Virus record (IMG/VR): IMGVR_UViG_3300032164_001143
Location: 1-46,298 of that record
Length of the DNA: 46,298 bases
From: a virus
Direction: 5' to 3' (one strand)
Positions 290-33,114 of this stretch are shown in pieces (the first letter of the stretch is position 1; the number at the start of each line of letters is the position of its first letter). The notes beneath the pieces were generated by a model, which saw only the letters and a program-made list of their open reading frames with translations, did not search any database and was not told the origin of the DNA. A program made the translations under genes and the position numbers.

Positions 290-1255
290 ATGCTGACGAT
301 CGCGTATATCGGGAATTACCGCCACTCGCATTGCACTGAATGCCACGTGTCGAAGACGTTGCAGTCTTTGGGCTGCGATGTCATCCAGTACCAGGAGGAC
401 CAGTACTCAGCGGAGCAGATCCTCGCCTCGCTCCCACCGAGCACCGACCTGATCCTCTGGTCGCGGACATGGGGCCTGCGGGACAAGGGCGGGGAGATGA
501 TCATCCGAGCGGCCCCTTGCGTGACCGCCGCGTTGAGCCTGGACCTCTACGTGGGCCTTGAGCGGCAGACCTGGATCGATGAGCATCCGTGGTGGAGGAG
601 CACTCATGTTTTCACCGCCGACGGAGGGCATGAGGAGTTCTGGAAGCAGCGGGGCATCAACCACCACTGGCTTCCGGCCGCGGTCTACGATAAGGAGTGC
701 TACCTCGCCGAACCCATCGAGAAGTATTCAGCTGATGTCGCTTTCGTCGGGGTGACGAGAAGCTATCATCGAGAGTGGCCTTATCGGATGCGGCTTCTTG
801 AGTGGCTGCGGAGCCAATATGGTACGCGCTTTTTGAAGATCGGCTTCCCGCTCGTGAGCATCCGCAACAACGAGCTGAATGAGCTCTACGCGAGCGTGAA
901 GATCGCGATCGGTGACACGCTCTGCCTGGGCTTCCAGCACCCGAACTACTGGAGTGATCGGGTCTACGAGACGACGGGGCGCGGAGGCTTCATCATTCAC
1001 CCGTTCGTCCCCGGGATGGAAAAACACTTCGAGAACGGAAGGCACCTAGTCTTCTACCAATACGGAAACTTCGAGCAGCTCCGCGAGCTCATCGATTACT
1101 ACCTCAAGCACGACGACGAGCGCGAGAAGATCCGCCTCGCTGGCCATCTGCACACGAGAACGAATCACACGTACAGGCATCGGATGCGCGAGCTTCTCGC
1201 GACGGTGTTCCCTGGCCTCGAGATTCCCCGAGAGGGGATTGAAACACTGAGATGA
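290..1255 (+). CDS. CgeB/YkvP-like glycosyltransferase
   Basis: The 321-residue protein looks like a GT-B fold glycosyltransferase of the CgeB/YkvP type. The clearest part is the C-terminal half, where DRVYETTGRGGFIIHP at about residues 221-236, followed by an FENGRHLV stretch and a helical end, matches the nucleotide-sugar binding domain often named glycosyl transferase 1_2. The N-terminal half starts with MLTIAYIGNYR, a typical first Rossmann strand. It would move a sugar from an activated donor onto a surface glycan or protein. There is no membrane segment or signal peptide. It opens a cassette of sugar and methyl transfer genes ahead of the packaging genes. The acceptor is unknown: virion protein or host envelope glycan are both possible. 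Confidence 0.8.
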   Translation: MLTIAYIGNYRHSHCTECHVSKTLQSLGCDVIQYQEDQYSAEQILASLPPSTDLILWSRTWGLRDKGGEMIIRAAPCVTAALSLDLYVGLERQTWIDEHPWWRSTHVFTADGGHEEFWKQRGINHHWLPAAVYDKECYLAEPIEKYSADVAFVGVTRSYHREWPYRMRLLEWLRSQYGTRFLKIGFPLVSIRNNELNELYASVKIAIGDTLCLGFQHPNYWSDRVYETTGRGGFIIHPFVPGMEKHFENGRHLVFYQYGNFEQLRELIDYYLKHDDEREKIRLAGHLHTRTNHTYRHRMRELLATVFPGLEIPREGIETLR

Positions 1256-1261
1256 TAAAAA

Positions 1262-1360
1262 GGGGCGCAAGCGGATCGTGATAGTGGCCACTACAACGGT
1301 GCGTCGCTGGGTATACCCGGCGAGGGACTAAGCGAGGTTCGAATCCTCGCGCGCCCCCCA
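1262..1360 (+). tRNA. tRNA-like element 1, atypical
   Basis: The 3' part is a textbook tRNA half: T stem CGAGG/CCTCG (1333-1337 and 1345-1349) around a TTCGAAT loop, then acceptor strand CGCGCCC and an encoded CCA at 1358-1360. The 5' strand GGGCGC at 1263-1268 pairs with 1351-1356, and G1262 can pair with C1357, as in tRNA-His. Position 7-66 would be an A-C mismatch. The middle does not fold into a normal D and anticodon arm. It holds two near-palindromes instead (about 1276-1297 and CGCTGGGTATACCCGGCG at 1305-1322), and at 99 nt it is long. No anticodon can be assigned. It sits 9 bases before the next start codon. It may be a real odd tRNA, a tRNA remnant or a tRNA mimic. Confidence 0.4.
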
Positions 1361-1369
1361 GGAGAGAAA

Positions 1370-2077
1370 ATGTTCCCGAGAACGATCACAGCTTATGAGG
1401 GCAGGAATGTGTTCTGCCGCGACGAGGCCGATATCAAGGTCGTCGCTGAGATGGAGTCGGATGTCTACAGGCTGAATTCTCATCGGCTGAGTGGACTGCC
1501 GATCATCGACTGCGGCGCGAACATCGGAGCCTTCTCGCTCTTCGCGCGGTGGAAGTCGCCAAAGGCGCGGATCGTCGCTCTCGAGCCGGATCGAGACAAC
1601 TTTTCGATCCTCGAGAAGAACGTCGAGGGGACATCGATCGAGATCGCGAATCGCGCAGTGATGGGGCATCACGGTGAAGTCGCGATGGAGCCAAGCTCGA
1701 ACACCGCTTGCAAAGCTCACTATCTCCTCCCTCCGAGTCCGATCGAGGAGTGGATGCTCGACGTCTCCCTCGTCAACAGCCTCCCGCCGACGTGGAGCAA
1801 GGCCGAAGCGATCACCCTCCCCGAGGTCTTCTCGATCTATGGGCTCGACGAGGTCGATGTTTGCAAGATGGATATCGAGTGTTCTGAGTATGGAGTGATC
1901 GAGAATACTCCGTCGGATGTGCTGAAGAAAATCCGCTACCTCGCGCTCGAGCTGCACGCTCATACTCCGACGGTGTTCGGGAAGCTCCTTGCGAAGATGA
2001 CGCTGACGCATCACGTCGAGACGTTGGGGTCGTACATGTTCTCAGCTTATGCGTGGTGCAGGCGATACAACCTCTGA
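1370..2077 (+). CDS. FkbM family methyltransferase
   Basis: A 235-residue SAM-dependent methyltransferase. IIDCGANIGAFSL at residues 44-56 is motif I, ALEPDRDNF about 24 residues later is the acidic motif II, and DVCKMDIECSEY near residue 162 is the conserved FkbM block. These enzymes O-methylate hydroxyls, commonly on sugars or polyketides, so it fits its glycosyltransferase neighbours and may cap a glycan. The start is supported by AGGAG at 1360-1364. The gene lies between the two tRNA-like elements, whose T-arm sequences form near-identical 19-base direct repeats around it. This hints that it may have been inserted as a unit. Confidence 0.85.
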   Translation: MFPRTITAYEGRNVFCRDEADIKVVAEMESDVYRLNSHRLSGLPIIDCGANIGAFSLFARWKSPKARIVALEPDRDNFSILEKNVEGTSIEIANRAVMGHHGEVAMEPSSNTACKAHYLLPPSPIEEWMLDVSLVNSLPPTWSKAEAITLPEVFSIYGLDEVDVCKMDIECSEYGVIENTPSDVLKKIRYLALELHAHTPTVFGKLLAKMTLTHHVETLGSYMFSAYAWCRRYNL

Positions 2078-2083
2078 CAGCCA

Positions 2084-2195
2084 GGACGTTCGTCGTCGGA
2101 ATAGACTATGCCGGAAAGCCAGACCGACGACGGGGAAGCGAAGGGGGCCGCGCATCCTCCGAGCGAGCGAGGTTCGAGTCCTCGCACGTCCGCCA
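2084..2195 (+). tRNA. tRNA-like element 2, atypical
   Basis: The 3' half again looks like a tRNA. T stem CGAGG/CCTCG with loop TTCGAGT spans 2168-2184, followed by acceptor strand CACGTCC, a G at the discriminator position and CCA at 2193-2195. GGACGT at 2084-2089 pairs with ACGTCC at 2186-2191; 7-66 is a T-C mismatch, in the same place as in element 1. Instead of D and anticodon arms there is a perfect 9-bp stem (CGTCGTCGG with CCGACGACG) and a GC-rich stretch. The length is 112 nt. The last A of the CCA is the first base of the probable ATG of the next gene. No anticodon is assigned. Confidence 0.35.
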
Positions 2196-2944
2196 TGGTA
2201 GCTCTCAGCCAGCAGCCCGCGCCCAAGGGCATCGACCTCCGCCTCGGTGATTGGCGCGAGACGATGAGCGATGTCGTCGTTGACACGCTCATCACAGACC
2301 CTCCCTATGGCGAGCGCACGCATGCGGCGAACACCGTCGAGAGCCTGAACGGTGTGGGCATGGTGCGGGCGAGCGGTGCGGTAGACCCGCCGAGGTACCG
2401 GCGCGCTCTCGTCTATGACTCGTTCACCGCCGAGGACGTGGTCGAGTTTGTCTCATCGTGGAAAGACCGCGTGGGAGGGTGGTGGTGCATCTTCTCCTGC
2501 TCGGATCTGGCGCACGTCTGGCGAGGAGCGCTTGAGGAGATTGGGCTCTTTGCCTTCGCGCCGATCGCATGCGTAGCCAGCGGTGGAACGGTGCGCCTGG
2601 CCGGCGATGGGCCGGCAAACTGGACCGTCTATCTCAATGTTGCCCGACCTCGGCACGCCCCCTACAGCAAGTGGGGGAGCCTCCCCGGGGCCTATATCAT
2701 GAGGGGGCGCGACCCGGATCCGATGTGTCGTATCGGCGGGAAGAGGATCGACCTGATGCGCGCCGTCGTTCGGGACTACACGAGGCAGGGTGACCTCGTC
2801 GGCGATCCTTTCGCTGGTCATGGGACGACGCTCCTTGCCTGCGAGGCCCTCGGGCGGCGCGCTGTAGGATCGGAGATCGAGCCCGAGGCGCACGCGATAG
2901 GGCTGGAACGGATTGCGCGAGGGAATCAGTTAGGACTTCTTTGA
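2195..2944 (+). CDS. Beta-class DNA methyltransferase
   Basis: A site-specific N4-cytosine or N6-adenine DNA methyltransferase. The catalytic motif TDPPYG is near residues 34-39 and the SAM-binding motif FAGHGTT near 205-211. Motif IV before motif I is the beta-class order. I chose the ATG at 2195 because the following segment ends in LRLGDWRET just before DPPY, the usual N-terminal layout. An upstream ATG at 2108 would put the tRNA-like element inside the gene. No clear ribosome site precedes 2195. There is no partner endonuclease nearby, so it is probably an orphan enzyme that protects phage DNA from host restriction. Its target sequence cannot be told from the window. Confidence 0.85.
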   Translation: MVALSQQPAPKGIDLRLGDWRETMSDVVVDTLITDPPYGERTHAANTVESLNGVGMVRASGAVDPPRYRRALVYDSFTAEDVVEFVSSWKDRVGGWWCIFSCSDLAHVWRGALEEIGLFAFAPIACVASGGTVRLAGDGPANWTVYLNVARPRHAPYSKWGSLPGAYIMRGRDPDPMCRIGGKRIDLMRAVVRDYTRQGDLVGDPFAGHGTTLLACEALGRRAVGSEIEPEAHAIGLERIARGNQLGLL

Positions 2945-3636
2945 TCGTGATCCCTCTCTACATCATCGGCGATTCTCACACTCGCCTCTACTTCTCGACG
3001 ACGAACAGAGCCGATCCACTGATCGTGCAAAGGGAGGTCGTCGGCCCCTGCGAGTGCATCTCGGAGACTCGCTACATCTATGCGGGGATGTCTCTTGGAG
3101 GATTCTCCGAGGAGACCGCGAGCAGCGAGGAGAGGGTCTTTCTTGGGCACCTCGCCGAATACCTGCAAGGGAAGACCTTCGACAATGTCGGGCTCATCTT
3201 CGGCGAGGTCGATATTCGCTGGCATGTCGTCCGCGAGCTGAAGGAGAAGAAGCTCGAGGAATCTCTCGGGAGCCGCCTGGCCGTTTACGAAGCTTTCATC
3301 GCCCGCGAGCTGGCTCCTCGCGTTGCTGGCAAGATCGTAGTCTTCGGCGGGATCCCTTACTCTCGTCGATACTCCGAGGCTGTGAATCATCCGGATGGGG
3401 TTTTGAACGTCTACGCGAGAAGGCTCGACGAGACTCTCTCTCTCATGTGCGCGGCTCATAGGTGGTATCACCTCTCGATCTTCGACGAGGTCTTGGGGCC
3501 GGATGGGTATCTCGATCCTCAGTACCTCAACCGAGACGAGAGCGAATGTACGATCCACCTCGAACCGAGCCTGACGAAGGCAATCGTCGCTGAGAAGCTG
3601 AATAGGATCTTTGATGGGTCAACGAATCATCCTTGA
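2941..3636 (+). CDS. SGNH/GDSL-like hydrolase
   Basis: A 231-residue protein with the block layout of SGNH hydrolases: IIGDSHTR at the N-terminus (nucleophile Ser12), FGEVDIRW near residues 87-94 in the position of the GxND block, and a C-terminal ESECTIHLEP with a candidate catalytic His near 206. Family members remove or transfer acyl groups on sugars and peptidoglycan. In this cassette it could trim or add acetyl groups on a glycan. It starts with TTG at 2941, overlapping the previous stop as TTGA; a GTG at 2947 is the alternative. The GDSH variant of GDSL is also common in phage-encoded members. The exact substrate is unknown. Confidence 0.65.
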   Translation: MIVIPLYIIGDSHTRLYFSTTNRADPLIVQREVVGPCECISETRYIYAGMSLGGFSEETASSEERVFLGHLAEYLQGKTFDNVGLIFGEVDIRWHVVRELKEKKLEESLGSRLAVYEAFIARELAPRVAGKIVVFGGIPYSRRYSEAVNHPDGVLNVYARRLDETLSLMCAAHRWYHLSIFDEVLGPDGYLDPQYLNRDESECTIHLEPSLTKAIVAEKLNRIFDGSTNHP

Positions 3637-4105
3637 GCTCGGGTCGGGAGCGAATCCCTTTCATCAGTCATCTGATGAATCTCGCGTGATTCACCTCGAT
3701 TGCGTCGAGGGCCCTCACGTCGAGCTGTACTGCAATCTCGAGCACGGGATCCCCTTGCCTTCAAACTCTGTCGACGAGGTCCTCGCTATCGACGTCCTCG
3801 AGCACCTGCGGGACATCGTGGCGATCGTCGATGAGATGCACCGCGTTCTCGTCGATAAAGGTCGTGCAACGATCCGCGTCCCTCAGTTTGGGACCTACAA
3901 CCACGTCACCGACCCGACGCACGTGAGAGGTTTCTCAGAGGACAGCTTCGATTTCTTCGACGACGAGACACCGCTCGGTAAGGGCAACGGCCGGATCTAT
4001 ACGTCGAGGAGATGGAAGATGTTAAACAAGGAGAAGGCGATATTGAATCTCCTCTTCACCATGGCGGCGATCAAACCCGGCGGCGAGAAGAGGAGAGCGC
4101 TGTGA
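3614..4105 (+). CDS. Class I SAM methyltransferase
   Basis: A 163-residue Methyltransf_11-type protein. ILELGSGANP at the N-terminus is a compact motif I, DEVLAIDVLEHLRD is the motif IV/post-IV region and EMHRVLVDKGRATIRVPQ is the typical strand-5 area. The protein is short and ends soon after the core, so substrate-binding additions are few. The ATG at 3614 overlaps the end of the hydrolase gene by 23 bases; a TTG one codon upstream is also possible. It is probably co-translated with its neighbours in the surface-modification cassette. The methyl acceptor is not evident; sugar or small-molecule targets are typical for this family. Confidence 0.75.
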   Translation: MGQRIILELGSGANPFHQSSDESRVIHLDCVEGPHVELYCNLEHGIPLPSNSVDEVLAIDVLEHLRDIVAIVDEMHRVLVDKGRATIRVPQFGTYNHVTDPTHVRGFSEDSFDFFDDETPLGKGNGRIYTSRRWKMLNKEKAILNLLFTMAAIKPGGEKRRAL

Positions 4106-5013
4106 AGATCAATCTCGTCACGAACATCCGAGATGGGAAGGGTCTTCTTCGCGACGCGCAGATCATCGAGGAGATCGCCAAGAGCATCGGGCACGACGTT
4201 AAAACCTTCGACTTCCGCGATCCGCCTGGTCGACGTGATGCCGCTCTGGCGATTCACTTCGAGGTGTACGCTCACGCCTATCTCACGACGGCGATGAGGC
4301 ATTGGATCTTCCCGAATCCGGAATGGTGGTATCCCAATTTTAACGATCGGCTCATCCTCGACTTTGAGAAGGTCCTCTGCAAAACGCGCTATGGACATCA
4401 GCTCTTCGCGGACCTTTGCAGCAACTCGGAGTATGTAGGCTTTCAAAGCCACGACATACGCGACGAGTCGATCAAGAGAGCGCGAGCGTGGATCCATGTC
4501 GCGGGCGGGTCGACGGCAAAGGGGACGAAGGCGATCCTGGATGCGTGGGACGCTTACGAGATCGAACACCCTCTTGTCATCGTCGGGACAACGATCGAGC
4601 GGCGACCTGTCAGGAACGTTCATTTCGTCCTGCGCCTCCCCGAGGAGGATTACAGGATCGCCATGAACACCTGCCTCTTTCACATTCAGCCGTCGGAGAC
4701 GGAGGGATTCGGACACGTGCTACACGAGGCGCTCAGCGTTGGGTGTGTGCTCGTGACGAGCGATTGGCCTCCCATGTCTGAGATCACCTCGGCGATCACG
4801 ATACCAATCGAGCAGGGAAGGACAGGGAGGCGCCAGCTCGCTCAGACTGCGGAGATAACCCCGCGGGGGATCCATGAGGCTGTCAGTGCGGTCGAGGCTC
4901 TCACGGAGAAGCAGGTCGAGATGTACAGGGTGAGCTCACGCGAAGAGTACGAGGGAGAGAGCTCGCGGTTCCGGTCAAAGATGGTCGAGCTCCTCTTAGG
5001 AGAGAGAAAGTGA
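4102..5013 (+). CDS. GT4-like glycosyltransferase
   Basis: A 303-residue GT-B fold enzyme. The donor-binding signature ETEGFGHVLHEALSVGCVLV lies in the C-terminal half, with the two Glu residues seen in GT4 enzymes, and AGGSTAKGT precedes it as the usual interdomain stretch. I start it at the GTG at 4102, overlapping the upstream TGA as GTGA, because residues from there (VKINLVTNIRDGKG) form the first Rossmann strand. The longer frame from 4012 only adds sequence that overlaps the methyltransferase. It would be soluble and cytoplasmic. With the other transferases it probably builds a short glycan on a virion or host surface target. Confidence 0.8.
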   Translation: MKINLVTNIRDGKGLLRDAQIIEEIAKSIGHDVKTFDFRDPPGRRDAALAIHFEVYAHAYLTTAMRHWIFPNPEWWYPNFNDRLILDFEKVLCKTRYGHQLFADLCSNSEYVGFQSHDIRDESIKRARAWIHVAGGSTAKGTKAILDAWDAYEIEHPLVIVGTTIERRPVRNVHFVLRLPEEDYRIAMNTCLFHIQPSETEGFGHVLHEALSVGCVLVTSDWPPMSEITSAITIPIEQGRTGRRQLAQTAEITPRGIHEAVSAVEALTEKQVEMYRVSSREEYEGESSRFRSKMVELLLGERK

Positions 5014-5906
5014 ACTTGAATCTTATCTGTGCATGCCCCTCGAAGGGACAGGTTACCGAGTGGCTACAGGACCAGTGCCTCAACCTCTTCCTCGCGTGCG
5101 CCATGAGCCAGCACAAGCCCGACGGGTCTCTTGTTCTGCCGACGAGCGCCAGGCATGCGGTGAAATGGAGCGGGCTCACTCGATGCCGCATGACCGACGT
5201 AGCTCAGTCGAGGAACAAGATCCTTTTCGCCGCGCTCTATGGACACCTGCGGGCGCAAGAGAAGACAGGCCGGACGATGCAGCCCGCGGACTGGATGCTG
5301 ACCTACGACAGCGACAACTTCCATCTCGCTGGCGAGGACATCACCCGCATGGTAATCGAGGGCGAGCGCAAGGGCGCAGCGGCGATCGGCGCTCCGGTCT
5401 CTCGTCGAGACGGTTTCTGCAACTTCCAGGTCGACATGAGGGCGCACGTTCGCCGCGCCGACTTCGGCGACTATGCGGGGAGGCTCCTCCAGGTCGAGAG
5501 GCTCGGGGCTGCTTTCATGGCGGTGAACCTCAACTGGATCCGCCGGCACTGGCCGAAGCCGCCATGGTTCGCCTTCGTCGAAGGATGCGACGAGAACGGG
5601 GAGCCGACCTGGACATCCGAGGACTTCTACTTCTGCGACGGGCTTCACGAGCGAGGCGGCGAGCTCTGGCTTGATGCGAGGTTTGAGCCTCGACACGATG
5701 GAGTTGAGTATCACGACTCCGTCCCCGGAAGACACATGCCGCAGCCCTTGAGGTACAGGGTGCCGGAGGAGAGCGATGAGCGAGATCGTCGAGATCCTGC
5801 CAGTGATCGACCGGACGATGAGCAGCTCGGGGTTCTCGATCTCGATCCGATGCGAGGGATTAAAGATCGACTTGGCGACGCGGAACCTGTGCAAACGGCT
5901 GGCTGA
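5010..5906 (+). CDS. GT-A-like phage glycosyltransferase
   Basis: A 298-residue protein resembling the GT-A type transferases found in many phages. A DSDN motif near residues 98-101, inside WMLTYDSDNFHL, is in the place of the metal-binding DxD. A later TSEDFYFCDGLHERG block carries the Glu-Asp pair expected of the catalytic base, and a DGVEYHDS segment supplies a late His. Start GTG at 5010 overlaps the previous stop as GTGA, with AGGAGAG just upstream. The last about 45 residues are charged and low in structure, and they overlap the next gene by 131 bases. That tail may be read-through of little function. It ends the surface-modification cassette. Confidence 0.65.
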   Translation: MNLNLICACPSKGQVTEWLQDQCLNLFLACAMSQHKPDGSLVLPTSARHAVKWSGLTRCRMTDVAQSRNKILFAALYGHLRAQEKTGRTMQPADWMLTYDSDNFHLAGEDITRMVIEGERKGAAAIGAPVSRRDGFCNFQVDMRAHVRRADFGDYAGRLLQVERLGAAFMAVNLNWIRRHWPKPPWFAFVEGCDENGEPTWTSEDFYFCDGLHERGGELWLDARFEPRHDGVEYHDSVPGRHMPQPLRYRVPEESDERDRRDPASDRPDDEQLGVLDLDPMRGIKDRLGDAEPVQTAG

Positions 5907-6315
5907 GATCAGCGCGAAGCATCTCGCCAAGGACATCGAGCAGGGGCTGGACGCGAAAGGCGCACCGCTGGCCCGCCTCGCTCCTGCGACGATCAAGCGC
6001 CGCGAACAGCGGGCAAGACAAGCGGCTACGAACATGTCGCCGAGCTTGGCGCAGAGGCTCCGAGGAGCGTCCATCGTCTCGACGACAACTCCGATGATGG
6101 AGACGGGGACGTTCGCTAGATCGTTACGAGTGCGGCTTGGATCGACGGTTTCCATCGAAGGAGATGGAGGAGCGGCGGTGGACGATGGAAGAGGAGCAAG
6201 GCGGTATGCCATCGAGACGAAATACCCTGGGCTCCTCGATGTACCCGAGAGCGCGGAGAGGGACATCAACGCGGCTCTTGAGGCTCACCTGGAAGACATG
6301 ATGCGAGGAGTTTAG
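5776..6315 (+). CDS. Possible virion morphogenesis protein
   Basis: A 179-residue protein of uncertain family. The central part, KDIEQGLDAKGAPLARLAP followed by ATIKRREQ, resembles the segment of gpG-like virion morphogenesis or tail completion proteins in which a D-x-x-G-x-P-W/L motif precedes a basic helix. This is a weak match. The ATG at 5776 has a strong GGAGGAGAG ribosome site but overlaps the upstream gene by 131 bases; a later ATG at 5818 would shorten that. It sits directly before the terminase genes, where a head or packaging role would be natural. Confidence 0.45.
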   Translation: MSEIVEILPVIDRTMSSSGFSISIRCEGLKIDLATRNLCKRLAEISAKHLAKDIEQGLDAKGAPLARLAPATIKRREQRARQAATNMSPSLAQRLRGASIVSTTTPMMETGTFARSLRVRLGSTVSIEGDGGAAVDDGRGARRYAIETKYPGLLDVPESAERDINAALEAHLEDMMRGV

Positions 6316-6675
6316 ATGGGCGGAGTAGGATCGGGTTATCGCGCGAGGCAGTACGACAAGATTATCGACCCCAAGACCAAGGCGGCTCTGTGGGCGGGAC
6401 TGCGAAAGAAGATTATCGAGGGCGATGTTCAAGCGCTGCTCGAGCACTCAGTTCGCCTTCAGGACGCCTACCTGAGCGGGAAGATCACAGGGTCGCAGCT
6501 CAGGAGCTGCATGACCGTCATCGCGGTGCAGCGGACGATCATGGGCCCGGTGGACATGAATCGGCGCACGCGCAAGCTGGAGGCGCTCGAAGGGTTCATC
6601 AGTCGCCCCAAGAGCAAGCTAGAGCTCCGCGACGTTGGGCCTCCGCCCGACTCGATGACCATGGACATACCGTGA
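6316..6675 (+). CDS. Candidate small terminase subunit
   Basis: A 119-residue helical protein that begins MGGVGSGYRARQYDK, a glycine-rich basic start often seen in small terminase subunits. It ends only three bases before the large terminase gene. It has no clear helix-turn-helix by eye. Position and size are the main evidence: the small subunit recognises the packaging site on phage DNA and hands it to the large subunit. It begins one base after the previous stop. It could instead be an unrelated small packaging or regulatory protein. Confidence 0.4.
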   Translation: MGGVGSGYRARQYDKIIDPKTKAALWAGLRKKIIEGDVQALLEHSVRLQDAYLSGKITGSQLRSCMTVIAVQRTIMGPVDMNRRTRKLEALEGFISRPKSKLELRDVGPPPDSMTMDIP

Positions 6676-6678
6676 TGG

Positions 6679-8280
6679 ATGGCGGGATACCTCGCATGGA
6701 AGAAGCTCGAGGCTCTCGAGGCCAAGACATCCAAGGAGCGGTTTGTCGACCTGGCGGTGCGCTACAGGCTGCTCAACGACGACGCTACCGTCGGAGGACT
6801 GCTCAGTGATGCTAGTGGTCGGCCGATCATATCCGGATGGAGATGGGACAGGATCGGCGGGTGCTGGGCGCGAGCGAGCGCTGACGACATCTTCTGTCAT
6901 GAGTACACCGTCCAGAAGCAGCAGGTTCCGATCATCGTCGAGACGACGCCCGATGTCATTCAGGTCGGGATGCTCGCCGGCAGGCAGGCCGGCAAGACGC
7001 ACTGCGGGATGCTCGAGATCATCAAGGAGGCTTTGCGCTGGCCTGGGCGCGACTCCGCCGTCATCAGTCGGGACTACAAGGCGAGCAGAGAACCTGAAGA
7101 GGTCTTCCGCTCGATGCTGCACCCGAGCTGGAACATCCGCGAGTGCAAGAGCGACAGGATCTACACCTTCCCGCATGGGCACAAGGTTTTTTTCCGCTCG
7201 CGCGAGGCGATCGATTCGGTTCGTGGTCCGTCGCTAAAGACGATCCTCCTCGACGAGTTCGCGCTCTACCAGGAGGAGGACTACATGACCGCGGTGGGAT
7301 GCGGAGCAGCATCCCGAGACTTCCGGCTCATCTTCGCGACGACGCCAAGGAGAGAGGTCGTGTGGTTCCGCGAACTGGTCGAGAAGTGGAAGAAGAGAGA
7401 GAAGAGCAAGGTCTTTGTCCTTCGGACCTATGACAATCCTCGACGAAATGAAGCGGTCATCGACGAGATCAAGGCGAATACTCCCGCCGATCTCTACAAC
7501 CAGGAATTCGAGGGCGAGCTCGTTCGCCCGCGTCATGCGACCTACTACCTCTTCGATGCTGCTCGCCACATCCGGCCGAAGCCTCAGACGGGAGACATCA
7601 CCCGCGACTTCTGTCGAGAGCACTTCGGCGAGCCGGCGAATTTCATCGGCGGATGGGATTTCGCTCGTGAGGCCACTGTCGTCGCGAAGGTCTTCCGCGA
7701 CGCCCACGAGGTTACGATCGGCCGGCGGTCGAGGATCATCAGGACTGAGTATCTGTGGATCGTCGGTGAGGTCGTCGATGAAAACTCGACAACCGAGCAT
7801 GTCGCTGAGCGGGTCGCCAACACCTTCGGTCGTAACATCTGCTGGGTTACGGATGCGATGGGGGCTTATGACCGATGCGGAGGGCGAGGGACAAACGATG
7901 AGGCGGCGGCGATCACGATCTTGCGCTCGACTGGATTCACAGCGGTCGAGCCGGTCGCGAGGTCTAACCCCAACGTCGAATTCAGGATCCGTCACGTCCT
8001 CCGCATGCTTCACAGCGTCCAGACCTGGCCATGGTGCCCCGACGGGGAGACCCGCCTGTATCTTGAGCCTGGCAGAACACCGCGGCTCAAGGACGCGCTT
8101 GAGAGCCACAAGAGGGATCGCCGGACGGGGAGACCTGAGAAAGACGGGTACCATGAACATGTGCTCGATGCCCTCGGCTACCTCATCTTCTACTGCTTCC
8201 CGATTGAGGACCTTGAGAGGGACAAAGAGATCGATCGTACTGAGATCGAGGAAAGCACGCCGCTGATCCTCGAGGACTAG
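6679..8280 (+). CDS. terL: Terminase large subunit
   Basis: The 533-residue packaging motor. The N-terminal ATPase has Walker A AGRQAGKT near residues 100-107 and Walker B TILLDEFA near 188-195, followed by FATTPR as the coupling motif. The C-terminal nuclease of RNase H fold starts with GGWDFAREAT near 323, carries WVTDAMGAYD in the middle and ends with HVLDALGYLIF near 497, supplying the metal-binding Asp residues. It translocates DNA into the procapsid at the portal and cuts the concatemer. Size and motif order are normal for the family. It is followed 9 bases later by the portal gene. Confidence 0.95.
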   Translation: MAGYLAWKKLEALEAKTSKERFVDLAVRYRLLNDDATVGGLLSDASGRPIISGWRWDRIGGCWARASADDIFCHEYTVQKQQVPIIVETTPDVIQVGMLAGRQAGKTHCGMLEIIKEALRWPGRDSAVISRDYKASREPEEVFRSMLHPSWNIRECKSDRIYTFPHGHKVFFRSREAIDSVRGPSLKTILLDEFALYQEEDYMTAVGCGAASRDFRLIFATTPRREVVWFRELVEKWKKREKSKVFVLRTYDNPRRNEAVIDEIKANTPADLYNQEFEGELVRPRHATYYLFDAARHIRPKPQTGDITRDFCREHFGEPANFIGGWDFAREATVVAKVFRDAHEVTIGRRSRIIRTEYLWIVGEVVDENSTTEHVAERVANTFGRNICWVTDAMGAYDRCGGRGTNDEAAAITILRSTGFTAVEPVARSNPNVEFRIRHVLRMLHSVQTWPWCPDGETRLYLEPGRTPRLKDALESHKRDRRTGRPEKDGYHEHVLDALGYLIFYCFPIEDLERDKEIDRTEIEESTPLILED

Positions 8281-8289
8281 GAGCCTCCC

Positions 8290-9771
8290 ATGCTGTGGGG
8301 TGATCGATCGTATGAAATCGTCAACAGGTCCTATAGCGAGGCGAAAACTCAAGCTGAGACTCGTCGCATGGAGGCAGCTGCTCGTCGGCTCGGGATGCTC
8401 GAAGACGACTGGAAGGATCTGCTCACGAACAAGATCTTTTCCCGCTACAAGAGCGAGAGACTGAAGAGCGAGATATCTGGGATTATCTCGACTGAGCACA
8501 ACGTCTTCAGGCGGCTCACGAACGAGCTCAGCCAGGTTTACAAGCTCCCAGCGCTCAGAAGGATCGAAGGGGACAAGCAGCAGAACGCGATCTGTCAGGC
8601 GCTCTGGAGAGAATCGAATATCGACGCGGTGCTCGACCAGGCCGACAAGTATCTGACCGCGCTGAGGGACATCCTCATCATCCCCGAGGTCGTGGCCGGC
8701 CGTCTCCGATATCGGATCGTCCCGCCCGATCGCTTCACTGTCTTGCAGCACCCCGACGATCCTGGGTCTGCCGTCGGCTTCACGTATCAACGCACCCTGG
8801 CGAATACCGCGGCCTACGGGAAGATTGAGACGGTTCACGGGGATGTGCAGCAATGGCAAATCTGGACAGCGAAGGGCCTCGATCGACGATGGGATCATGG
8901 GATCGGGAGATTGCCCGCCCTCATCGTCCATGCCGAGGAGCGGACCGGTGACGACTTCTTCGGTGATACCGTCTTCTCCGACGTCTACGAAGCCAACCTC
9001 AGCGTCGGCTGTGATCTCGTGATGCTCACTCGACTGATCAAGTGGCAGTCGGAGATCCAGGTCACTTACAAGGGCAGACCCCGCGAGCTGGCCAAGGGCA
9101 TGGGGGTCGGAGCTGACAACATCTGGGCGGCCCCCGGTGACTTCAGCTCGATCAACTTGCAGGCCGACCCTGGAAAGCTCCTCGAGGTGATCCGCTTCCG
9201 CATCGGGTCGATCGCTCAGAGCTATGGACTGGCCGGAGACATGTACGATCTCAGCGCGTCACCGAGCTCAGGCTTTCAACTCAGGCTGAAGAGGATGCCG
9301 CTCATCGAGGCGCGGGCTCGACGGGTGCCGACGTGGAGGCGAGCAGAGTCGGAGCTATTCAGGCTCACCGCGCTCATCTGCGAGCGCGAGCACCCGACGC
9401 TCAAGCCCGACTCGCTCGCAGACTTCCGCGTCGATCACACGGATGAACCGATGATCGAAGATCCGAAGACAGAGCAGGAACTCTTCCGAGGATGGATCGC
9501 CGACGGCCGAATGGCTCCCGAGGAGCCTCTCCGTCGAGACAATCCCGATCTGAGCGTCGAGGAGGCGGAAGCACTTCAGCGAGCGAACCTCGAGAAGAGG
9601 GCGAAGATCATGGAGTTCATGTCCTCGCGGAACATGAGCAGCGACGGCGAGAAGATCGTCGAGAGGACAGCTCAAGAGAACGGAGCGCAGGGAGCGGCGG
9701 CTCGAGGCCGACCAGGCAAGCAGCCGGATGATGCCTTCACGCGCAAGATGCTCGAGGAGCTTGGATCATGA
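8290..9771 (+). CDS. Portal protein
   Basis: A 493-residue protein directly after the large terminase. The mixed N-terminal domain, the RYRIVPPDRF and VLQHPDDPGSAVGF strands and the long C-terminal helices rich in Glu and Arg fit an SPP1/HK97-type portal. The segment SYGLAGDMYDLSASPSSGF is in the position of the portal loop before the final helix bundle. Twelve copies would form the ring through which DNA enters the head and to which the tail connectors bind. The C-terminal tail (about residues 440-493) is polar and Ala/Gly-rich. The stop overlaps the next start as ATGA. Confidence 0.85.
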   Translation: MLWGDRSYEIVNRSYSEAKTQAETRRMEAAARRLGMLEDDWKDLLTNKIFSRYKSERLKSEISGIISTEHNVFRRLTNELSQVYKLPALRRIEGDKQQNAICQALWRESNIDAVLDQADKYLTALRDILIIPEVVAGRLRYRIVPPDRFTVLQHPDDPGSAVGFTYQRTLANTAAYGKIETVHGDVQQWQIWTAKGLDRRWDHGIGRLPALIVHAEERTGDDFFGDTVFSDVYEANLSVGCDLVMLTRLIKWQSEIQVTYKGRPRELAKGMGVGADNIWAAPGDFSSINLQADPGKLLEVIRFRIGSIAQSYGLAGDMYDLSASPSSGFQLRLKRMPLIEARARRVPTWRRAESELFRLTALICEREHPTLKPDSLADFRVDHTDEPMIEDPKTEQELFRGWIADGRMAPEEPLRRDNPDLSVEEAEALQRANLEKRAKIMEFMSSRNMSSDGEKIVERTAQENGAQGAAARGRPGKQPDDAFTRKMLEELGS

Positions 9772-10097
9772 GCCCGCTCACCCAGGCAAAGAAGGATCTC
9801 GTGAGAGCGCGAGCGCTCGCGGAGGGCATCGATCCTGATGCCGCTGTCGCCAGCGTCGAGCGTATGCACGACCAGGCCGAAAGCGAGAGGGCGGTCATGG
9901 ATGGAGACGAGGGAGACGAAGACGAGGGAACGACAACCCCCCCAGCACCGACGAAGGCTCCCGAGGATAAACCGCTGTATCAATGGCATGCCCCTTTTGT
10001 CCTCGTCCGAGAATTGAGAGAGCGCTTGGGTCTCGTCGAGAGGATTCCCGGCGACGATCTGACTTGCGCTGAGTTCATGTCGAAATCGAACAAGTAG
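9768..10097 (+). CDS. Small head-region protein
   Basis: A 109-residue acidic protein with no recognised domain. The middle (about residues 40-65) is a linker rich in Asp, Glu, Gly, Thr and Pro; the ends are helical and more ordered. Its ATG overlaps the portal stop as ATGA, and the scaffold gene follows 8 bases later. That places it in the head assembly operon. It might be a scaffold accessory or internal head protein, but nothing in the sequence decides this. Confidence 0.65.
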   Translation: MSPLTQAKKDLVRARALAEGIDPDAAVASVERMHDQAESERAVMDGDEGDEDEGTTTPPAPTKAPEDKPLYQWHAPFVLVRELRERLGLVERIPGDDLTCAEFMSKSNK

Positions 10098-10105
10098 GAG
10101 AATCG

Positions 10106-10894
10106 ATGTCAGAAGAAATCAAGGTCGCGGTGGAGACCGCGGCGCCGAAGTCTACCCCGAGCATGGCGGATGCCATGCCGCGCTCGCCAGATACCTCACC
10201 CAGTCGAGCGCCGGAGGATTCCGCGGGCGGTGGCACCTCGAAGACGGAGCGGGAGGTCTATCTCGAAGGGGAGCTCAAGAAGACGATCGAGGCGAGAGAC
10301 CTCGCCAAAAAGCGCTTTCTTGATTCACCCGAGGGACTAGAGCTCCTCGCGAAGGCGCGCAAGGCCGAAGAAGTCGAACGCGCTCAAGTCGATGCTGAGA
10401 GGAAAGCCGCCGAGGAGCGAGGGGAATGGAAGCGCCTCCATGACGAGGAGAAATCTCGTCGGGAAAAGCTGGAGTCTGAGATCACAGAGTCGCGACGGAG
10501 ATCGCAGCTCGACGCTATCAGACACGAAGCGCTCGACGCCTATCGTGATGGGAGCGGGATCGACGCGGAGACTTTCGGGCTGCATCTCGACAAGGCCCTC
10601 GCTGACGGCTCAGTCAAGATCGGCGAGGATGGCAAGCCCGACGGGATCCGCGAGTTCGTGAAACGACTAGCCGAGGGCAAGCCCTTCCTCTTTGCCTCGC
10701 AGCAAGAGGCACTGAGGCGGGTGACCGAGGGGGTCGGGAATACCCTCCGCGCTGCATCAACCGCGCTCGGTGAACGCAAGCTAGACAACGCTCCTCGTCG
10801 AAGGGCTTCGCTCGCGGAGCCGAACATCGACAACAGGAGTATGGAGCGAGCACTCGCGGCAAGGCAGAACACGAGCATCTTGCCGCAGAAGTAG
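10106..10894 (+). CDS. Capsid scaffolding protein
   Basis: A 262-residue protein with the layout of phage scaffolds: a disordered Ser/Pro-rich N-terminus (residues 1-45), a long charged coiled coil (about 50-140, rich in Glu, Lys, Arg and Ala) and a smaller C-terminal part ending in basic residues. It lies between portal and major capsid genes, the standard place. The product would form the temporary core around which the capsid shell assembles. It resembles GP20-type scaffolds in composition; I see no protease motif. AGGAG precedes the ATG. Confidence 0.75.
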   Translation: MSEEIKVAVETAAPKSTPSMADAMPRSPDTSPSRAPEDSAGGGTSKTEREVYLEGELKKTIEARDLAKKRFLDSPEGLELLAKARKAEEVERAQVDAERKAAEERGEWKRLHDEEKSRREKLESEITESRRRSQLDAIRHEALDAYRDGSGIDAETFGLHLDKALADGSVKIGEDGKPDGIREFVKRLAEGKPFLFASQQEALRRVTEGVGNTLRAASTALGERKLDNAPRRRASLAEPNIDNRSMERALAARQNTSILPQK

Positions 10895-10910
10895 CTCGAG
10901 GAGATCGAAC

Positions 10911-11840
10911 ATGGCGATCACGGGATTCACCGGAACCGCTCAACTGGGTGATTCAGTACAGGCCGAAACCATCGCTGACAAGGTCGTCAAGACGGCCTAT
11001 TGCACAGCGGTTGCTGATGCTCTTATCAACGCTGACAGCTCCTGGAGCGGGCACGACTTCATCACCGGCTCGACGGTCAAGAGCTATTCTCGGCTGGGCT
11101 CGCTCAGCGCCGCTGCGCTCACTCAGGGAACCGACGGAACCCCGACGGCGCTCACGGATTCGCAGGTGTCCGCGACGGTGAGCGAGTGCGGCGTCGGCGT
11201 TGACTATGGCGATATGCTGCGCTTCGCTCAGAGCTCACCGGGCGGTAAGGCGAAAGTCGCCGGCCTGATGGGCAAGGCCTACGGGGATTACGTCGACGCG
11301 ACGATCCTCGGGCTCGCCTCCTCTTTCACTGATTCCGTCGGCGCGGTCGATGCACTCACGCTCGACGAGTTCCTCCAGGCGATCCACGAGCTCGAGGAGA
11401 ATCAGGCCGACGGCCCCTTCGCGTCGATCCTGCACACCGCCGCAATCAACAACCTCCGCGCAGCTCTCGGAGGAACCTCGGGCTCGACCGCCGCGGTGTT
11501 CGCCCGCCTCGGCCTCGACAGGATCGGCCCCGCGCTGATCAGCGGATTCTGCATGAACCTGTATGAGGTCGACGTCTTCAAGACGACAAACTCGGACCAG
11601 AACGCCAGTGAGACGGGCTGGATCGGGATGCTCCTGCCGATGTCGCAGGACATGCCGATCGTCAGGACGATCGCCCGGTTCCCCGCGGACGATCCCGACT
11701 GGCCGAACATGGCCTGGGATGGACGCTTCGAAGAAGAGCGCGATGCGTCGGGTCGCCTCACCGAAATGTGGGTCACCGGATGCTGGGGCGTCGCGGTGAT
11801 CGCGGCTGACTTCGGCGTCGGAATTCTATCGACGAAGTAA
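10911..11840 (+). CDS. Major capsid protein
   Basis: A 309-residue protein after the scaffold gene. The N-terminal ADKVVKTAYCTAVADALIN, the central helix VDALTLDEFLQAIHELEENQ and the C-terminal strands MWVTGCWGVAVIAADFGVGI fit an HK97-fold capsid subunit. It has little Lys in the N-arm and no obvious protease delta domain, so assembly probably uses the separate scaffold. Strong start context (GAGGAGATCGAAC before ATG). It is the last gene before a strongly structured intergenic region, which may set its expression relative to downstream tail genes. Confidence 0.85.
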   Translation: MAITGFTGTAQLGDSVQAETIADKVVKTAYCTAVADALINADSSWSGHDFITGSTVKSYSRLGSLSAAALTQGTDGTPTALTDSQVSATVSECGVGVDYGDMLRFAQSSPGGKAKVAGLMGKAYGDYVDATILGLASSFTDSVGAVDALTLDEFLQAIHELEENQADGPFASILHTAAINNLRAALGGTSGSTAAVFARLGLDRIGPALISGFCMNLYEVDVFKTTNSDQNASETGWIGMLLPMSQDMPIVRTIARFPADDPDWPNMAWDGRFEEERDASGRLTEMWVTGCWGVAVIAADFGVGILSTK

Positions 11841-27606: not shown

Positions 27607-28176
27607 TTAGAGCACTAGCGCGAAGTCGGTTTTCAACAAGCGGCGCTCGTCTCGGAGCCCCTCGAGGCGCGTTCCTTCGATGGCTCGCGCGAAGCAACCG
27701 CCTTCTTTCGAGCGGAAGTCGGGGGGCCACTCGGGAGACCAGACTTCGACGATCTCCGAGTCGACCACTTCGAGGTAGAGCATCCATTCCCTCGCGTCGC
27801 CCTTGGCCTTGCCTACGAAGAAATCCTCGAGGCATTCCTTGGTCTCCTCGTAGTTCTCCTCGAGGCTGGCCATGACGGCAGAATCCCAGGCGTCCCCGAG
27901 CGGGTCACCTCGACGAGACAACTCCGAGATGTCCTCGGCCCTGTCGATGGGGATGGGCCGAGCGTAGACACGAGCCTGCCTCTGCCCGAAGACGAAGACG
28001 GGCTTTGCCTTGGTCGCCTTCCCTGGTTCCTTCCGCTTGGCCCCTGACGGGGCTTCCGCCTCTACCTCCGCCGCCTTGCGCTTCGCCCCTGCCCCTGCCC
28101 CTGGCGGGTCGACGAACAGGAGCAGGACGACGGCAACGACGGCGACGATGGCGACGATGAGCCACAATGCCCTCAT
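27607..28176 (-). CDS. Membrane-anchored AgmX/PglI-like protein
   Basis: A 189-residue protein with an N-terminal anchor (ALWLIVAIVAVVAVVLLLF, about residues 3-21), a basic Ala/Lys/Glu linker and a C-terminal domain. In that domain, a KECLEDFF helix, a central strand EWMLYLEVVDSEIVEVW and a second Cys in GGCFARAIEGTRLEGL are spaced like the paired-Cys TonB-like domain of AgmX/PglI proteins from myxobacteria. This match is by eye and tentative. It overlaps the upstream gene as ATGA and is convergent with the endolysin gene, outside the phage core. It is probably a lysogenic-conversion gene and hints at the host. Confidence 0.5.
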   Translation of the reverse strand: MRALWLIVAIVAVVAVVLLLFVDPPGAGAGAKRKAAEVEAEAPSGAKRKEPGKATKAKPVFVFGQRQARVYARPIPIDRAEDISELSRRGDPLGDAWDSAVMASLEENYEETKECLEDFFVGKAKGDAREWMLYLEVVDSEIVEVWSPEWPPDFRSKEGGCFARAIEGTRLEGLRDERRLLKTDFALVL

Positions 28177-32959: not shown

Positions 32960-32989
32960 AAAAGGCCCGTCAGCCCAACGCCGACGGGT
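32960..32989 (-). terminator. Rho-independent terminator-like hairpin
   Basis: On the minus strand CCCGTC (32983-32988) pairs with GACGGG (32966-32971) across an 11-base loop, followed by CC and a TTTT run at 32960-32963. It lies downstream of the minus-strand tRNA and ahead of the MazG-like gene. A close copy of this hairpin, without a full T run, is found at 36075-36098. It may end the tRNA transcript or attenuate the operon. Confidence 0.55.
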
Positions 32990-33038: not shown

Positions 33039-33114
33039 TGGGCACCGGCGACGGATTCGAACCGCCTAGCATCGACGCTGATAGCGTCGAGATCGCTCCA
33101 AGCGAAGACCGGCG
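33039..33114 (-). tRNA. tRNA, possible Asp with AUC anticodon
   Basis: Exactly 76 nt with encoded CCA. Acceptor CGCCGGT pairs with GCCGGTG (two G-U pairs). Anticodon stem CGACG/CGTCG encloses the loop CTATCAG. T stem GGCGG/CCGTC encloses TTCGAAT. Standard placement of U33 gives anticodon AUC, which would read the Asp codon GAU; A34 is very unusual there. The D arm is short (UCGC/GCGA with a 5-base loop carrying GG), position 8 is not U, and the discriminator is C. It lies in a gap between minus-strand genes and is followed by a terminator-like hairpin. It is either functional and odd, or decaying. Confidence 0.55.

Follow-up and report, generated by a model that had tools for sequence, protein, structure and literature searches.

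Two tRNA-like elements without an anticodon raise the question of what such RNAs may do between the genes of a phage. They lie in a 46,298-nt stretch of viral DNA, which was analysed as a whole and is called the window here, and where an earlier note had placed them around an FkbM gene and against gene starts, with RNase P processing signals, tRNA mimics and marks of cassette insertion offered as possible readings. Both elements, here termed TLE1 and TLE2, were confirmed at these positions on the plus strand. Their helix, their place relative to stop codons and their counterparts in other phages are set out below, together with the reading that we favour and its alternatives.

Architecture of the two elements

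TLE1 (1263–1360), supported by its sequence, its fold and a strict motif, consists of 98 nt, or of the 99 nt previously counted if G1262, which may pair with C1357, is included. Its 5′ acceptor strand GGGCGC (1263–1268) pairs with GCGCCC (1351–1356), which is followed by C73 (C1357) and an encoded CCA (1358–1360), and its T arm GCGAGG-TTCGAAT-CCTCGC (1332–1350) has a 6-bp stem and a consensus T loop. RNA folding places two internal arms between them, a long irregular hairpin that replaces the D and anticodon arms (1271–1304) and a 7-bp hairpin, CGCTGGG/CCCGGCG, with a TATA loop (1305–1322). TLE2 (2084–2195) has the 112 nt noted before and is supported by sequence and the strict motif in its acceptor/T-arm helix only: the 5′ acceptor strand GGACGT (2084–2089) pairs with ACGTCC (2186–2191), G73 (G2192) and CCA (2193–2195) follow, and the T arm GCGAGG-TTCGAGT-CCTCGC (2167–2185) again has a 6-bp stem. 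The 19-base T arms differ in one base, as had been described, and the acceptors in two pairs, with both partners changed in a compensatory manner.

The T arm, paired acceptor and encoded CCA ascribed to both elements by the earlier note are thus present as a 6-bp acceptor and a 6-bp T stem, 12 perfect base pairs in total, which are divided 7/5 in a tRNA. The mismatch at 7-66 that it had seen in both elements is found at that position in each, but is an artefact of a forced 7/5 split, because G48-C66 forms the sixth T-stem pair of a 6/6 helix. The features of an acceptor/T-arm substrate of RNase P, namely a 12-bp coaxial helix, a T loop and a 3′ CCA, are present in TLE1 and TLE2 alike.

Position between genes

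The neighbours of the two elements in the window are a glycosyltransferase and methyltransferases, all encoded on the plus strand. A glycosyltransferase-like gene (290–1255; Pfam Glyco_trans_1_2, 5e-24) lies upstream of TLE1, the FkbM-type methyltransferase gene (1370–2077; Methyltransf_21, 1.6e-9) between TLE1 and TLE2, and a DNA methyltransferase gene of the N6/N4 type (2195–2944; N6_N4_Mtase, 7e-15) downstream of TLE2. The TGA of the first gene stands 7 nt before TLE1 and the TGA of the FkbM gene 6 nt before TLE2; approximately 5.5% of positions would qualify as equally stop-adjacent. Throughout the gene run 290–11840 only two gaps exceed 20 nt, one of 114 and one of 117 nt, and it is these two that TLE1 and TLE2 fill, the remaining junctions measuring −26 to +16 nt, with an approximate start used for the junction from 5906 to 6315, where the list of open reading frames gives an overlap.

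The 3′ ends are as close to the next start codons as had been noted, at nine and zero bases. The ATG of the FkbM gene (1370) follows nine bases 3′ of TLE1, the A of whose CCA is the first base of the AGGAG Shine–Dalgarno sequence of that gene, and CCA of TLE2 and the ATG at 2195 have one A in common. An alternative ATG at 2108, inside TLE2, could open a longer methyltransferase reading frame; since homology to phage methyltransferases begins past residue 40 of this longer form in nearly all listed matches, translation more probably starts at 2195. Only H40 departs from this pattern, and most of its additional match falls within the adjacent gene, ahead of the methyltransferase start as annotated. 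Separately, ATTCCCCGAGAGGGGATTGAAAC (1223–1245, plus strand), which lies where the glycosyltransferase gene ends, approximately 17 nt before TLE1, agrees in 21 of 23 bases with a CRISPR repeat family, in the 3′ part of the repeat; with an E value of 0.8, below threshold, it can be a solo repeat or a chance match.

tRNA identity, fold and chance

A normal tRNA fold was looked for in both elements and none exists. ARAGORN called neither element in the window, an Rfam search that included the tRNA models returned no family at threshold, and a good anticodon hairpin of 5 bp and 7 nt with U33 is absent from both, which bears out the previous observation that a normal anticodon arm is lacking. Anticodon-like hairpins amount to none in TLE1 and one candidate of four pairs in TLE2, and the best weak tRNA-like resemblance in Rfam is, for both, mascRNA-menRNA (RF01684), with 17.6 and 16.4 bits against a threshold of 42.5. 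Without an anticodon arm and without a model match, a normal, an intron-containing or a tRNA-Sec gene was rejected.

The strict motif, composed of a 6-bp T stem, GTTCRANYC, a 6-bp acceptor and NCCA, was found at two places in the window and had no occurrence in 12 Mb of Markov sequence searched on both strands. Taken singly, the two acceptor matches carry modest weight (local shuffle p = 0.075 and 0.041). Compared with shuffled sequences, the fold of the whole element is significant for TLE1 (z −4.1) and not for TLE2 (z −0.6), the interior of which is therefore without demonstrated structure. A third candidate (27659–27729) was rejected, being without G53-C61 and having a fold no better than expected by chance. 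The only tRNA called by ARAGORN in the window is a near-canonical tRNA-Asp on the minus strand (33039–33114, anticodon ATC). It has C73 and a short D arm, the Rfam tRNA models do not match it at threshold, and it begins approximately 9 nt past the stop codon of the gene upstream; a terminator-like hairpin follows near 32980.

The same helix in other genomes

Searches with the terminase, FkbM and glycosyltransferase proteins found no close relative of this phage, and viral contigs were therefore scanned for the T arm. A perfect in-register acceptor partner upstream was found for 45 of 81 non-redundant viral T arms against 4.1 expected, with shuffle tests at shifted registers as controls and the reverse control of the same scan near chance (6 versus 3.7); no more than 12 of the 81 are picked up by ARAGORN. 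Replication with a different T stem gave an acceptor in 11 of 26 non-tRNA matches (1.1 expected), and bacterial genomes contain 23 acceptor-paired cases among 63 (3.5 expected). Members of this class range from 39 to approximately 140 nt, the short ones being laid out as acceptor, linker of 8–22 nt and T arm; the 3′ CCA of TLE1 and TLE2 is missing from most other viral elements. Conservation of the paired stems in relatives, the lack of which the earlier note would have taken as a refutation, can be stated for compensatory changes in other phages, but not for close relatives, which were not found.

Part of the class has a different appearance. Tandem arrays of anticodon-less tRNA-like elements, often among real tRNAs, are seen in L035, L108, L036, L004, L016/L071, L219 and L226, and since some long viral elements occur within tRNA arrays, a portion of the class may well serve a different function. 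Some long viral elements retain Leu-like D arms. Related phages (L102/L112 and L090/L101) have swapped the middles of their elements and retained the acceptor, D-arm and T-arm ends, and long elements of L066 and L004 enclose a second complete T arm, as if tRNA-like units were nested. In actinobacteria of several genera (Jiangella, Micromonosporaceae and others), a tRNA-like RNA of 96–102 nt shares the 6/6 helix and likewise lacks an anticodon (L130:5080–5177 and ten further loci in alignment A3: L131, L145, L147, L151, L152, L160, L174, L179, L188 and L193). Its mean column identity is 88%, one acceptor pair covaries (L179), and it is present as a single copy in the four genomes checked and absent from Rfam.

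Minimal elements on stop codons

Elements of at most 60 nt (39–60 nt), here called minis, were compared with the stop codons of same-strand open reading frames in a window of −7 to +15 around the 5′ end of the element. Such a stop is found at 14 of 21 non-redundant minis against 0.85 expected; at elements of 61–130 nt there is little or no excess (4 of 53 against 2.2), which limits the claim of punctuation, since the stop-codon excess is largely missing in longer elements. No Rfam family claims the minis tested. Their linkers contain TGGT in 6 of 13 cases (0.7 expected, p 5e-5, for a form chosen post hoc), and this motif recalls the GG that the D loop presents to the T loop; plain GG in short linkers is a weak test (11 of 11, with 7.8 expected). 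By sequence, many unrelated phages place similar, mostly shorter, putative tRNA mimics right behind stop codons.

The densest case is L227 (IMGVR_UViG_3300013947_000051), in which a mini follows each of six genes in a row, the 5′ acceptor beginning at or just past the TAA stop. L113 and L250, the latter a contig related to L227, carry three minis each, as compared with the two elements of the window. Across six distinct mini copies, pairing holds in 97% of cells and both sides have changed in four of the five T-stem pairs; these T-stem bases lie outside the query, and the covariation score was reached by no shuffle. A mini together with approximately 45 nt of the following leader is near-identical before different genes in L227 and L253, as if one module had been copied.

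In Tangaroavirus, the genus to which L113 led, the cultured Prochlorococcus phages 9515-10a, P-SSP10 and NATL2A-133 carry two minis each, with the annotated stop codon within the acceptor or the linker. The cyanophage minis lie in the T7-like part of the genome, ahead of the RNA polymerase gene; in NATL2A-133 the two elements flank a DNA methyltransferase gene. In the cyanophages L254, L255, L256 and L113, a second hairpin stands 3 nt after each mini, those of the three cultured phages included, and its stem changes in a compensatory manner (GACTCTC/GAGAGTC versus GACTCAC/GTGAGTC).

In an independent scan only the T loop and the acceptor AGCTAG/CTAGCT were specified, with no constraint on the T stem. 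All six T-stem pairs are present in 15 of the 16 unique matches, which comprise 14 different T-stem sequences, and the single failure also lacks GG in the linker. Twelve of the 15 fully paired elements lie on same-strand stops, with 1.0 expected, and antisense stops are without excess.

Discussion

With a confidence slightly above even, we regard TLE1 and TLE2 as non-decoding tRNA-like elements which mark gene boundaries in a polycistronic transcript and are natural minimal substrates of RNase P. In bacteria, this enzyme needs no more than a hairpin of acceptor stem, T stem and T loop for cleavage, and certain mRNAs and phage RNAs are also among its substrates (PMC11143913). A signal that has the form of the RNase P hairpin and lies on stops between co-directional genes is most readily explained by a cut site that separates messages, probably into pieces of one gene each. 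TLE1 and TLE2 would offer the enzyme its recognition part of a tRNA, and host RNase P would cut 5′ of each helix, at sites predicted from the 12-bp rule between 1262 and 1263 (or 1261 and 1262) and between 2083 and 2084. The upstream message would be released a few nucleotides past its stop codon and the downstream message would keep a folded, 5′-phosphorylated leader, with possible effects on message stability. At TLE2, 3′ trimming to the CCA would remove or expose the start codon, such that RNA maturation and translation could compete; the overlap of the CCA with the Shine–Dalgarno sequence (TLE1) or the start codon (TLE2) would be awkward were both ends fully matured.

The processing signals for RNase P proposed by the earlier note receive strong indirect support from the recurrence of minis at gene-boundary stops, from which we infer cleavage itself, and the tRNA mimicry that it considered holds in form, in the T loop, the acceptor and the GG-bearing, D-loop-like linker of the minis. 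Because TLE1 and TLE2 (98 and 112 nt) exceed the 39–60 nt of the minis behind the statistics, the step from the class to the window is taken by architecture: the shared 6/6 helix, the missing anticodon, the stop-adjacent position and the filling of gaps suggest that the long elements of the window act like the minis. Evenly balanced, in our judgement, is the wider proposition that phages of several hosts use anticodon-less tRNA mimics that keep the elbow as punctuation for host RNase P; this family would be built of acceptor, GG-bearing linker and T arm, down to 39 nt and often overlapping the stop, with TLE1 and TLE2 as long members.

Alternatively, the elements could be independent non-coding tRNA mimics that are excised and act in trans, for instance as decoys for tRNA-cutting defences of the host or tRNA-binding proteins, and their intergenic place would merely be a way of being transcribed. 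TLE1 is a stable, well-folded RNA, some viral elements with conserved ends and swapped middles stand in tandem arrays among real tRNAs, and phage tRNA arrays are linked to counter-defence by reports cited in PMC12803027. We nevertheless hold action in trans to be unlikely for the window, as the minis possess little beyond the helix recognised by RNase P and sit on stops far above chance, and as the interior of TLE2 is unsupported.

That the elements are decayed tRNA genes, which lost the anticodon domain and survived in gene gaps, appears very unlikely to us. Phages often carry tRNAs, the window has its near-canonical one and the Leu-like D arms of some long elements fit such an origin, but decay would not spare 12 perfect pairs and the CCA while erasing the rest, nor are six in-register copies with covarying T stems expected from it in one operon, and the 6/6 split contrasts with the 7/5 of the near-canonical tRNA of the window.

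Cassette exchange, in which recombination at tRNA-like sites brought the FkbM gene and left the T arms as direct repeats, draws on the near-identical 19-base T arms on both sides of one gene, on the DNA methyltransferase gene similarly enclosed in NATL2A-133 and on whole element-plus-leader units recurring before different genes in L227 and L250, yet it is highly improbable, since only the T arm and 3′ end match closely, the acceptors are each paired with a 5′ partner of their own, as would not be so in a scar, and neither the class-wide location at stop codons nor covarying stems are expected of insertion scars. Of the earlier note's suggestion of cassette insertion, the repeated T arms and the flanked gene stand. 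An attP site or an integration remnant appears improbable from the genes next to the elements, which are a glycosyltransferase and methyltransferases in the window and diverse in the wider class, where integrase-like families were matched by single neighbours only.

The proposed punctuation by elements cut by RNase P would have counterparts in known systems. In mitochondrial tRNA punctuation, folded tRNA units between genes and against stop codons also mark the cuts of the transcript, whereas those are real decoding tRNAs and the phage elements are anticodon-less, down to 39 nt elsewhere, and only putatively cut. RNase III sites in the T7 early mRNA are intergenic RNA structures at which a phage transcript is cut between genes; the fold is different, and so is the enzyme if the RNase P reading is correct. 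The mascRNA of MALAT1, a tRNA-like hairpin behind a long RNA, is reported to mark an RNase P cut, but is mammalian and single copy, and shared ancestry is not indicated. RNase P also acts on structures other than tRNA in mRNAs and phage RNAs (PMC11143913). The cases known from E. coli polycistronic mRNAs, the phage P1/P7 C4 RNA and M3 RNA are isolated, irregular structures, whereas here gene boundaries in many phages repeatedly carry a standard acceptor/T-arm module.

The minimal model substrate, an acceptor stem with a T stem-loop, shares the 12-bp helix and the T loop, and in the window the CCA, but it is synthetic, whereas the phage elements are genomic, divided 6/6 and, in the minis, equipped with a GG-carrying linker. 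Allo-tRNAs and tRNA-Sec are also longer than usual and divide the acceptor/T helix in an uncommon way, yet they still decode, unlike the TLEs with their 6/6 helix and no anticodon arm; the canonical tRNA differs from the TLEs by its cloverleaf with a 7-nt anticodon loop, its 7-bp acceptor and its 5-bp T stem.

No description of tRNA-like punctuation in phages was found in the open-access papers searched. Since tRNA finders miss the signal and Rfam has no entry for it, it has probably been overlooked in many genomes, and as cultured Prochlorococcus phages carry minis, the idea of punctuation is directly testable. If correct, it would constitute a bacterial-virus counterpart of mitochondrial tRNA punctuation, itself missing from Rfam, and show the minimal RNase P substrate as it occurs in nature. 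Phages would turn a tRNA-maturation enzyme into an mRNA cutter by means of a standard and very small signal, and single genes in a dense operon would obtain separate message ends and stabilities.
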